Position numbers and translations under genes: made by a program
Shown: positions 4,243-27,864 of the stretch, piece by piece
How positions within the stretch are numbered: the stretch's first letter is position 1
Layout of the letters: every line of letters begins with the position of its first letter
Notes under the pieces: generated by a model
The model's input: only the letters and a program-made list of their open reading frames with translations
Databases searched by the model: none
Told to the model about the DNA's origin: nothing
Source of the DNA: an uncultured Lacinutrix sp.
GTDB taxonomy: Bacteria > Bacteroidota > Bacteroidia > Flavobacteriales > Flavobacteriaceae
Assembly: GCF_947500605.1 (NCBI RefSeq)
Contig: NZ_CANMSJ010000005.1
Location: 1 to 64,000 of the forward strand
Length of the DNA: 64,000 nt
Reading direction: 5' to 3'

Positions 4243-5304
4243 TTATTTAATGATATATGGATTTTCGTTTTGGTAATTACGCATTACAAAATCTAAGGCT
4301 GCTTTTAGTAATTCGCCCATGTTTCGAGCACGTTTAAATTTAACATCTCCTGTTAAATCGAACAAGCCAAGTTTTAATTGTTTAATTTTTTCGGGTGAAG
4401 AAATCTCATCTCTCTTCATACATAATATTAAATGACGTAAACGCTTTTGTTCACTTTTAGCACGCTTTGCAAGTAGTGAGCGTTCCTCTTTTTCGTATTG
4501 TTTTATAGAGCCTCTGGTTAATACCTCTGCACTCATTTCTACCAATGGATTGTTTTCTTTTAAAAACTGAGGTTTATAAACTTTAGGGTTGCCTTCGTAA
4601 CTCTGCTGATCGAAATCTACAGCACGAATACGGTATTGTTTACGGTCGAAATCGTGTGTAATTACAATAACGTAGTTGTACGAGCGCATATCGGCCAATA
4701 ACCTTACAAAACAACGTTCGTTAAACTTAACAAACTCTTTTGCTAAAGCTCTTCTGTCTTGCTCTGTAATGGTGTGTAAATGTTCTTTTATATAAATGTC
4801 TCCAGGAATTCCAGAGATGTGTTCTTCGATTAATGTGTCTTTATGAACTAAAAAATTAATGTGGTTAGGAGAAAGAATATCTTCTAGCTCTAAACCATAA
4901 ATACGTGAAGCATCGGCTTTTTTAATGTAAAGAAAGATGTAGTTATCGTTTAATACGTTTCTTACCTTAATACGAAAAGGCTTCGTGTTACCAAAGGTGC
5001 AAAAATCGATACTATCAATATTTAAATAGGGTAGAATACTATCGCTTCCATCGGAATGTAAGATGGAATACATTTGCTTTAAGCTGTTTTGTATTTCTTC
5101 GCGTTCGTGTTCTGCATAATAGCAGCTTACCCAAAGTGTATCGACGTCATTATTATCAAAAATTTCTACTGCACCTTGAAAACGCAGTAAATCGTCGTAG
5201 AAAATCGGAATTTTTATATTCCTGCCTTGAGCAGTTAAGTAGTTAGATAGTTGAGCAGTAATTGGATAGGCAGGCTTTTTTTTAGAAATTAATTTTTCGT
5301 TCAT
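4243..5304 (-). CDS. Conserved protein of unknown function upstream of pyc
   Basis: I do not recognise a named family with confidence. The 353-residue protein has no signal peptide or membrane segment and is probably cytoplasmic. The middle has kinase-like features: SGIPGDIYIKEHL, then FVRLLADMRSYNYVIVI, then RIRAVDFDQQSYEG, where D-F-D could be a metal-binding motif after a basic catalytic-loop-like segment. The C-terminal third is highly charged (KEERSLLAKRAKSEQKRLRH). It lies 13 bases before pyc on the same strand, so co-transcription and a link to pyruvate carboxylase or biotin metabolism are reasonable guesses. The kinase-like reading is inference from motif shape only. Confidence 0.7.
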   Translation of the reverse strand: MNEKLISKKKPAYPITAQLSNYLTAQGRNIKIPIFYDDLLRFQGAVEIFDNNDVDTLWVSCYYAEHEREEIQNSLKQMYSILHSDGSDSILPYLNIDSIDFCTFGNTKPFRIKVRNVLNDNYIFLYIKKADASRIYGLELEDILSPNHINFLVHKDTLIEEHISGIPGDIYIKEHLHTITEQDRRALAKEFVKFNERCFVRLLADMRSYNYVIVITHDFDRKQYRIRAVDFDQQSYEGNPKVYKPQFLKENNPLVEMSAEVLTRGSIKQYEKEERSLLAKRAKSEQKRLRHLILCMKRDEISSPEKIKQLKLGLFDLTGDVKFKRARNMGELLKAALDFVMRNYQNENPYIIK

Positions 5305-5451: not shown

Positions 5452-5480
5452 TTTGTTTACTAAAAATAATTATACCTTTG
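5452..5480 (+). promoter_or_regulatory. Canonical Bacteroidota promoter (TTTG-N17-TACCTTTG)
   Basis: The -33 box TTTG and the -7 box TACCTTTG (fitting TAnnTTTG) are 17 bases apart, which matches the consensus for the main Bacteroidota sigma factor. Transcription should start near 5485, only a few bases before the ATG of the first short open frame. It is one of only two promoters in the window where I find both boxes clearly. Confidence 0.75.
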
Positions 5481-5490
5481 CTTCATAATT

Positions 5491-5553
5491 ATGAAAAACA
5501 ACAATTTAAATAGTATTTGTAAACAGGCCTGGATGTCAAATTCCGGAAGCTAG
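5491..5553 (+). CDS. Putative 20-residue leader peptide 1
   Basis: A short frame opens about ten bases after a strong promoter and ends 27 bases before an intrinsic terminator. Its C-terminus reads ICKQAWMSNSGS. The frame at 5628-5723 ends MCNKSYMSNYRSV, so the two share C-x-x-[AS]-[WY]-M-S-N-x-x-S although the DNA differs at synonymous positions (TCA against TCC for Ser). This suggests selection on the peptide. It could be a leader peptide of an attenuator or a stand-alone micropeptide. I know no named family for it. Confidence 0.5.
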   Translation: MKNNNLNSICKQAWMSNSGS

Positions 5554-5580
5554 AGCGTATACTATTATTACATATTTAAT

Positions 5581-5612
5581 AAGCGTTCTATTTTTTTATA
5601 GAACGCTTTTTT
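5581..5612 (+). terminator. Intrinsic terminator after leader peptide 1
   Basis: The stem AAGCGTTCTA / TAGAACGCTT closes a short T-rich loop and is followed by a T run. The stop-codon region of the preceding frame (TAGAGCG at 5551-5557) can pair with CGTTCTA of the left arm with one G-U wobble. That would compete with the terminator, as in attenuators. Without readthrough the transcript would be about 125 nt long. Confidence 0.8.
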
Positions 5613-5627
5613 ATTACACAAAACTGA

Positions 5628-5723
5628 ATGAATATTTTAAACTTTATTTCGATTAATGCCAGTAAGATTACACGTATAAATATGTGTAATAAGTCTTATA
5701 TGTCCAATTATCGAAGCGTTTAG
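5628..5723 (+). CDS. Putative leader peptide 2 (31 residues, or 13 from an inner start)
   Basis: The frame begins MNILNFISINASKI and ends MCNKSYMSNYRSV; an inner ATG at 5682 would give only the last 13 residues. The end matches the first short peptide in its Cys, aromatic, Met-Ser-Asn and Ser positions. An intrinsic terminator follows 23 bases later. I see no promoter of its own, so it may depend on readthrough of the terminator at 5581-5612. Its position directly before the YitT gene suggests control of that gene. The function is unknown. Confidence 0.45.
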   Translation: MNILNFISINASKITRINMCNKSYMSNYRSV

Positions 5724-5746
5724 AATGAGTTAAAACTTAAATTTTT

Positions 5747-5785
5747 AATCCCTTTGATTTTATTTTAAATCAAAGGGATTTTTTT
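5747..5785 (+). terminator. Terminator or attenuator abutting the yitT start
   Basis: A perfect 14-base stem (AATCCCTTTGATTT / AAATCAAAGGGATT) with a six-base loop is followed by a T run that touches the first possible ATG of the next gene. A terminator in this place cannot serve an upstream mRNA alone. It must also decide whether transcription enters yitT, or else yitT has a promoter I do not see. Confidence 0.8.
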
Positions 5786-5797
5786 ATGTCTAGTATT

Positions 5798-6655
5798 ATG
5801 AAAAAAAGAATCACATTATTATTACAAAGAGAAGAAGTGCTTACAGAGCTTAAAAGCTATACAAACGTTTTAATAGGCTCGTTTATATTATCCATAGCCT
5901 ATGTAATATTTATTATACCACACAATATAGTGCCTGGTGGTATTTTGGGATTAAGTATTGTAATTAATAAGCTTACAGGTATGTCTATAGGTATAATTGC
6001 TATACTTATAAATATTCCTTTATTGCTTTGGGGAACAAAAGTACTTGGCGGAAAAACTGGTGTTAAAACTGCTTTTTCTATGGTATTGGTTTCTTTTTAT
6101 ATCGATGTTTTTTCTAAGATTTTTGAAAACAGAGTTTTTGTGGAAGATGTTTTAGTGTCTTCATTATTTGGAGGTGTTATTGTTGGTTTTTCTGTTTTTA
6201 TGGTAATGAAGGCAGGAGCAACAACAGGCGGAAACGATATTTTAGTTCGTATTCTAGCAACCAAAATAAAACTTCCTTTTAGTCAGCTTATTTTAATAGT
6301 TGATGGTGTCATTATTTTTCTAGGGATTTTTGTTTTTAAAGATTTTACAATGGCTGCTTATAGTATTGTTGCTATAATTGCGATTAGTAAAACGATAGGT
6401 TATTATATTAAAAAATCGACAACACACATGACCGTTTTTGTGTTCTCTAAAAAGAATTTACTTATTCAAGAAGCTTTTTTAAATTTTGAAGAGTATACCA
6501 ATACTATTTTAAAGCTGATTCATCATGACTCTCAAGGAAAGTTAATATTAATAACCAGAAACGCTAAACAGTTAGAAGCTATTAAAAGCGTTGTTTATAG
6601 CGTGGATGCCGATGCTGATATTAGTGCATTAGAATCTAGTACCGAATCTATTTAA
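5798..6655 (+). CDS. YitT family membrane protein (DUF161/DUF2179)
   Basis: This is a putative inner-membrane transporter of the YitT family, whose substrate is not established. About five to six hydrophobic segments fill the first 200 residues, including VLIGSFILSIAYVIFIIPHN and the family stretch GATTGGNDILVRILATK. A soluble DUF2179 domain follows (THMTVFVFSKKN to the end). I chose the ATG at 5798 (MKKRITLLLQ) because an alternative ATG at 5786 directly abuts a stable terminator stem; the longer form adds four residues. Two short-peptide/terminator modules lie upstream, so the gene is probably controlled by attenuation. Confidence 0.85.
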   Translation: MKKRITLLLQREEVLTELKSYTNVLIGSFILSIAYVIFIIPHNIVPGGILGLSIVINKLTGMSIGIIAILINIPLLLWGTKVLGGKTGVKTAFSMVLVSFYIDVFSKIFENRVFVEDVLVSSLFGGVIVGFSVFMVMKAGATTGGNDILVRILATKIKLPFSQLILIVDGVIIFLGIFVFKDFTMAAYSIVAIIAISKTIGYYIKKSTTHMTVFVFSKKNLLIQEAFLNFEEYTNTILKLIHHDSQGKLILITRNAKQLEAIKSVVYSVDADADISALESSTESI

Positions 6656-27734: not shown

Positions 27735-27812
27735 GGCGTTACCTAAAGGTCGGGCTTTCCACTGTATCTTTTTGCAGAAAAACAAAAAGGATGCCGTTGC
27801 AATCCCTAACGC
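27735..27812 (+). ncRNA. Conserved flavobacterial structured repeat (GGCGTTACC...CCCTAACGC)
   Basis: The element starts GGCGTTACCTAAAGGTCGGG and ends CAATCCCTAACGC, with an inner hairpin ATCTTTTTG / CAAAAAGGAT. I recall very similar sequences repeated in many Flavobacteriaceae intergenic regions, with conserved ends and variable inner loop, which suggests a mobile palindrome or an RNA. It lies about 50 bases before ftsY, inside its presumed leader. Only one copy is in this window. Confidence 0.5.
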
Positions 27813-27864
27813 AGAAATAACGTAGAGTATCAACTTTACTACCCAACAACAAACACAAACAGTA

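Follow-up and report, generated by a model that had tools for sequence, protein, structure and literature searches.

The 5' leader of yitT in an uncultured Lacinutrix sp. very probably consists of two ribosome-mediated transcription attenuators set in series behind one promoter, a reading drawn from a 64,000-nucleotide stretch of DNA (herein referred to as the window) and from related loci. The first-pass annotation had offered a tandem translational attenuator for YitT as one possibility; comparison upholds the tandem attenuator, but the kind that it points to is transcription attenuation, in which the position of the ribosome would choose between terminator and antiterminator; for the translational kind, no alternative structure masking the yitT start, which lies 3' of terminator 2, was noticed. 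By comparison among relatives, the order of the parts, the reading frames, the terminators, the antiterminator complementarity and its position with respect to a ribosome at the stop codon are conserved, and we infer the transcription, translation, read-through and signal of the leader as set out here and below. RNA polymerase would start a few bases 5' of ORF1, at the usual distance from the -7 box, and a ribosome would load on the near-leaderless ORF1. On reaching the ORF1 stop, the ribosome would cover the stop region, so that terminator 1 forms and transcription ends; if stalled or lagging some 9–13 codons upstream, it would leave the stop region free to form the antiterminator with terminator 1's 5' arm, and the polymerase would continue. 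ORF2 and terminator 2 would make the same choice again just 5' of yitT, and YitT would thus be made only if ribosomes are slow on both ORFs.

Table 1. Parts of the yitT leader and its flanking reading frames, in positions of the window
Feature	Position	Strand	Description
Promoter	5452..5480	+	TTTG 5452-5455, 17-nt spacer, -7 box TACCTTTG 5473-5480; basis: sequence
Leader ORF1	5491-5553	+	MKNNNLNSICKQAWMSNSGS, 20 codons, UAG stop; Cys codon UGU 5518-5520
Protector pairing	5509-5520 with 5555-5566 (span 5509..5566)	+	Encloses ORF1 hairpin 5529-5546; basis: MFE
Antiterminator 1	5551-5558 with 5583-5590	+	ORF1 stop codon onward, predicted to pair with terminator 1 5' arm
Intrinsic terminator 1	5581..5613	+	Stem-loop 5581-5608, then U tract; 97.9% of cells paired
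Leader ORF2	5628-5723	+	MNILNFISINASKITRINMCNKSYMSNYRSV, 31 codons and stop; Cys codon UGU 5685-5687; internal hairpin 5668-5689
Antiterminator 2	5710-5716 with 5752-5758	+	Last ORF2 codons, predicted to pair with terminator 2 5' arm
Intrinsic terminator 2	5747..5785	+	Stem-loop 5747-5780, then U tract; 95.1% of cells paired
yitT	5798..6655	+	YitT-family membrane protein, presumed regulated gene; Pfam PF02588, E=1.1e-46
353-aa ORF adjoining leader	4243-5304	-	Begins at 5304; upstream neighbour of leader

The two short ORFs ahead of yitT, each followed within 30 bases by a terminator, had been noticed in the first-pass annotation and are borne out (table 1): terminators 1 and 2 start 28 and 24 bases 3' of the ORF1 and ORF2 stops, and 1.5 kb searched on both strands holds three terminator-like sites (two in the leader and one on the minus strand), with 0.6 expected by shuffling. 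The same annotation had terminator 2 touching the start region of yitT. The terminator does run to 5785, but ATG 5798 is the more likely start, because ATG 5786, at which the mechanical yitT ORF begins, is missing from all four aligned relatives. Upstream, the 353-aa ORF matched nothing in either Pfam or NCBIfam.

An orthologous leader is found in four further genomes of the same genus, and a YitT alignment and two peptide patterns, run against species-representative genomes, yielded at least 30 loci. Both modules, each an ORF with its terminator, are present at all 22 scan loci whose YitT is at least 63% identical and, among four Flavobacteriales loci with 48–52% identity, at L086 and L089; no such leader was seen at L087 (Tenacibaculum, YitT 49% identical), nor, by eye, at four loci from other phyla (L090-L093). 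The set of 27 leaders analysed here comprises the 22 loci, L086, L089, the window, L036 and L062, leaving out L063 (the same as L078 in the stretch shown), L085 (75 nt of upstream sequence only), L087 and L090-L093; all of its rows are related, ORF ends were chosen via a hand-made list of C-termini and nine clades were assigned by hand. Every leader in the set has the order promoter box, ORF1, terminator 1, ORF2, terminator 2, yitT, an architecture kept across at least seven named genera (Lacinutrix, Oceanihabitans, Xanthomarina, Bizionia, Formosa, Ulvibacter and Aequorivita) and two Flavobacteriales MAGs. YitT of this subtype is itself patchy, occurring in 4 of 199 family genomes (a sample with nearly one per genus; E<=1e-60) and in 5 of 13 genus genomes (E<=1e-80), and no YitT relative was confirmed in the viral contigs scanned.

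The promoter that the first-pass annotation had placed 5' of ORF1 stands, with its TTTG, 17-nt spacer and -7 box, which ends 10 nt 5' of the ORF1 ATG in the window; the TTTG at 5452-5455 we take to be the upstream element of a Bacteroidetes-type promoter. The -7 box of such promoters is TAnnTTTG, according to passages of PMC9723704. This box ends 8–12 nt before the ORF1 ATG in 27/27 leaders and is absent from both downstream intervals (ORF1 to ORF2, ORF2 to yitT) in all of them, so that a single promoter for the whole leader and a nearly leaderless ORF1 are both probable; a TTTG at 17–18 nt spacing from the -7 box is present in only 11 of the 27. Frame 0 of both ORFs is open in all 27 leaders, while frames +1 and +2 are each stopped at least once in every one of them, and the shuffle probabilities of such open frames, multiplied over the nine clades as if these were independent, come to 9e-8 for ORF1 and 3e-11 for ORF2. 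ORF1 has 19 or 20 codons and ends on UAG in 26 of 27 leaders; ORF2 has 26–34 codons and ends on UAA (18), UGA (5) or UAG (4).

Both terminators are conserved with compensatory changes, at the paired proportions given in table 1. In both modules of all 27 leaders, the segment at the end of the ORF complements the 5' arm of the next terminator better than does any non-overlapping window between the ORF start and that arm. Antiterminator 1 pairs in 85.2% of alignment cells, and slides of 1–3 columns reach no more than 59.3%; for antiterminator 2 the figures are 92.5% in place and no more than 57.1% slid, and two of its rows replace A-U by G-C. This signal is mostly conserved complementarity and not covariation, because shuffling partners among rows barely alters the paired percentages: antiterminator 1 still pairs at 85.0%, and antiterminator 2 exceeds its shuffles narrowly (92.5% versus 91.4%; 19 of 500). 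The fixed alignment of antiterminator 1 contains no compensatory double change, and a slide of +3 gives it a higher covariation score. When duplex energies were compared among nine representatives, however, the leaders' own antiterminator 1 pairs beat pairs swapped between clades (p=0.0017), and terminator 1 and its partner are seen to change together (UAGAACG/CGUUCUA in L062 versus GAGGUG-AAC/GUUCACCUU in L089). The equivalent comparison for antiterminator 2 gave no significant gain (p=0.21), because its arm hardly varies.

The location of the antiterminator strand was related to ribosome position by folding each leader up to the terminator 5' arm while masking 29 nt as the ribosome footprint, the stalled ribosome having its A site on a Cys codon 24–45 nt before the stop (27–39 in practice) or, failing that, 30 nt before it. 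In these folds, the expected number of antiterminator pairs is at least four in both modules of all 27 leaders with a ribosome stalled upstream, and in none of the 27, for either module, with its A site on the stop. The latter follows from the masking, which covers the antiterminator strand at that position, so that the informative part is where the strand lies. Without a ribosome the antiterminator also forms, in 22 (module 1) and 24 (module 2) of the 27 folded leaders; stalling raises its expected pairing in 25/27 and 20/27, respectively. A protector helix, which would favour termination without translation, is lineage-specific, being strong, for example, in L081 (UCGCUC with GAGCGA) and weak or absent in several lineages. 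In module 1, matched protector partners did not outdo swapped ones with fixed windows (p=0.51), and narrower windows, a second choice, gave p=0.013, a value to be discounted for that reason; module 2 gave p=0.24. Computationally, each module thus has a short ORF between promoter and terminator and an antiterminator that a ribosome at the ORF end would block, with little covariation in the fixed alignments, and in 27/27 leaders two such putative attenuators, each with its own ORF, share one leader and one promoter box. Against this reading, the leaders have no run of codons for a single amino acid, in contrast to ilv, trp or poly-Asn leaders.

In design, the leader appears closest to amino-acid leaders. 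A covariance model of module 1, searched over the 199 family and 13 genus genomes, places the yitT leaders at the top (E 1e-17 to 1e-13), and the ten best non-yitT matches (E 7e-8 to 8e-5), of which seven lie before ilvD, one lies before ilvE and two encode poly-Asn, all resemble amino-acid leaders; a leader with Trp-Trp-Trp before trpE (L109) follows at E 3e-4. Weak matches occur in 155 of the 199 family genomes at E<=0.5, and many of the weaker ones that we read are not leaders. These next-best matches imply that the yitT leader follows the Flavobacteriaceae design of amino-acid attenuation, doubled and stripped of its codon run: the ilvD, ilvE and trpE leaders found by the same model likewise place a short ORF and a terminator before the gene, but Flavobacteriaceae amino-acid leaders carry runs of Ile/Val, Trp or Asn codons and the yitT leader, which is double, carries none. 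Strong clues for amino-acid leader-peptide attenuators in F. psychrophilum are mentioned in passages of PMC9723704.

Two described systems share other properties of this arrangement. The leader of the Salmonella membrane-protein operon mgtCBR also has two short ORFs, mgtM and mgtP, both of which belong to attenuators; as described in the portions of PMC3641672 consulted, mgtP is rich in proline codons and adenines make mgtM responsive to ATP, whereas the yitT leader has no codon run, gives each ORF its own intrinsic terminator and precedes yitT in Flavobacteriaceae. Bacillus subtilis bmrB, in the portions of PMC4191407 consulted, likewise places a membrane-protein gene (bmrCD) under ribosome-mediated transcription attenuation, in which rare codons matter, and its antibiotic-responsive leader is described there without an amino-acid codon run, unlike the leaders of amino-acid operons. 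Its single leader ORF contains the terminator, and experiments have established an antibiotic as its signal; the yitT leader has two ORFs. Among the open-licence literature matches listed, no title concerns a yitT leader, and tandem attenuators are named in the title of the mgtCBR paper alone. The nearest described case found is mgtCBR; the yitT leader is ordinary in principle and unusual in arrangement.

The codon content of the ORFs bears on the signal that such attenuators might sense. Among 1279 leader codons, 58 encode Cys (55 UGU and 3 UGC); weighted by clade, Cys is 2.1 times as frequent as in base-shuffled leaders and makes up 4.9% of codons versus 0.2% in yitT. At least one Cys codon, and at most four, is present in 26 of 27 leaders, the exception being L077; in 22/27 a UGU precedes the ORF1 stop by 30–33 nt, the other five ORF1 having no Cys, and ORF2 contains a Cys codon in 25/27, placed 27–42 nt before its stop in 19/27. 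With base-shuffled leaders as the reference, Met, Cys, Asn, Lys and Ser are over-represented in the ORFs and Leu, Val and Asp under-represented, with UGU, CGC, CGU, AAG and UCC the enriched codons; Lys occurs in both ORFs of every leader. Only 1 of the 1279 codons in the 27 loci encodes Asp, and UUC, UAC and UGC occur 0, 2 and 3 times where UUU, UAU and UGU occur 55, 38 and 55 times. The leaders also favour codons that yitT uses little (CGU/CGC, AAG, UCC and U-ending NNY).

Our best guess for the signal is a low level of cysteinyl-tRNA read through the UGU codons, with a general slow-down of translation about equally likely. Under the first of these refinements, which we put forward tentatively, UGU is the control codon, the attenuators sense charged tRNA-Cys and YitT serves the uptake or balance of cysteine or sulfur. 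The position of UGU before the ORF1 stop, the near-universal presence of Cys codons and their enrichment over shuffled leaders and over yitT all speak for it, and of the motif seen in the first-pass annotation only the shared Cys persists. Against it, Cys codons number only one to four per leader and are missing from L077 and from five ORF1, Lys is even more constant (though common anyway), UGU may be kept for the RNA sequence UGUAAG, and seven cysK/M upstream stretches inspected by eye in the genus, six of them directly behind a reading frame, have no such leader. Under the second refinement, which may hold with no greater and no lesser probability, the leaders respond to a general slowing of translation (through ribosome-targeting antibiotics, several amino acids or cold), like bmrB for bmrCD, with less-used codons and basic residues tuning the speed. 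We know of no resistance role for YitT, and codon bias can stem from RNA structure too; both weigh against this idea. It is favoured by the lack of a codon run, by the preference for codons little used in yitT and the avoidance of Asp, Leu and Val, by the near-neutral rate at which the ORF amino-acid sequences change, and by the description of a transporter under such a leader, with rare codons mattering, in parts of PMC4191407. Combining both attenuators with the first refinement gives a two-step gate, itself somewhat doubtful, in which both ORFs must be read slowly, at their UGU codons, before the polymerase gets to yitT; if true, it would be a regulatory clue to this YitT clade as a cysteine- or sulfur-responsive transporter and an instance of tandem ribosome-mediated attenuators outside enterobacteria.

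An alternative is a riboswitch-like element that would bind a metabolite or protein, with the ORFs incidental. Synonymous divergence is lower in the leader ORFs (0.05–0.35) than in yitT (0.19–0.63) in each of four groups, and therefore the RNA sequence is constrained too; hairpins also recur inside the ORFs despite changed sequence. In most single sequences, however, the ORF1 hairpin does not outperform shuffles. Aequorivita has it in a different register, for which reason sliding the alignment by one column raises the score, and we regard this hairpin as modestly supported. A riboswitch-like element is nonetheless very improbable: no Rfam family comes near its gathering score in the leader region, the alignments have no large invariant core, such an element would not need its frames kept open, and the antiterminator strands sit at the ORF ends.

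A selected peptide is not supported by how the ORFs have evolved. The first-pass annotation had described a C-terminal motif common to both ORFs (a hydrophobic residue, then C-x-x-[AS]-[WY]-M-S-N-x-x-S) and, from similarity at the peptide level with different synonymous codons, had proposed a translated, selected peptide. The motif is real in the window ORFs but is not conserved: its strict form occurs in ORF1 of 2/27 and ORF2 of 1/27 leaders, the window leader alone having it in both, and a strict DNA pattern of it found the two window copies and nothing else in 149 family genomes. (A degenerate Cys-Lys/Met pattern was discarded, with 24 true versus 34 control matches in the 13 genus genomes.) Nor does the resemblance lie in the peptides rather than in the DNA: 23 of the 33 bases in the two motif stretches are identical (counted by eye) and the sole synonymous difference at residues common to both is TCA/TCC; the DNA similarity of ORF1 and ORF2 exceeds all 300 shuffles in the window and L071, and does not in the other seven of nine leaders tested. 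Codon counts over four groups, which take in 22 of the 27 leaders (without L074, L078, L083, L086 and L089), give a pN/pS of 0.51–1.02 for ORF1 and 0.79–1.05 for ORF2, versus 0.09–0.21 for yitT by the same method in the same groups. The excess of synonymous change looked for in a selected peptide is thus not seen, though the frames are kept: the comparison indicates that the reading frame is retained and the peptide sequence hardly. That the ORFs are functional micropeptides of an undescribed family, whose mRNAs the terminators merely end, is therefore the least credible reading, since conserved frames and a terminator for each ORF are set against near-neutral peptides, a motif absent from both ORFs together in all but the window leader, complementarity that ties the ORF ends to the terminators and the lack of a TAnnTTTG box 5' of ORF2.

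What the leader might control is a protein of an uncharacterised family (YitT/DUF161; Pfam and passages of PMC4944035). The literature passages on YitT give no function; for the related YczE proteins, amino-acid transport is hypothesised in parts of PMC4944035. The sequence of the window's YitT had no PDB match at E<=0.01, and a fold model of it (mean pLDDT 78.7) had none at E<=0.001, its C-terminal part weakly resembling the DUF2179 entry 3hlu (TM 0.74 by target length, E 0.36). Leader codons may report the signal to which such a gene responds, which would make the physiology of YitT/DUF161 proteins testable.

Several other leaders came to light in these genomes. Poly-Asn leader peptides (e.g., MKNNNNNNNFNNPKF) precede an ORF of 88–89 aa in L143, L146, L106 and L107, with a terminator between the two in L143 and L146; the ORFs behind these last two leaders have no Pfam match, the one tried in NCBIfam had none there, and the poly-Asn leader looks like an asparagine-sensing attenuator. 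In L110 (1501-2882), the leader MKNRTYIIKQTCSVSQSKHRRCMYHL is followed by a GC-rich terminator, identified by eye, and then by an MFS gene with efflux-family similarity below the cut-off; this peptide is rich in K, R, H and C without a codon run, and in this resembles some yitT leaders. The window's own genome has an Ile/Val leader, MKKQVINIISIIRIVIISRSQGML, before ilvD (L148; G000:C4:229641-229787, minus strand), and the window itself contains a Flavo-1 RNA (Rfam RF01705, 54.3 bits) at 27744-27820 on the minus strand, its sole Rfam match at gathering score.
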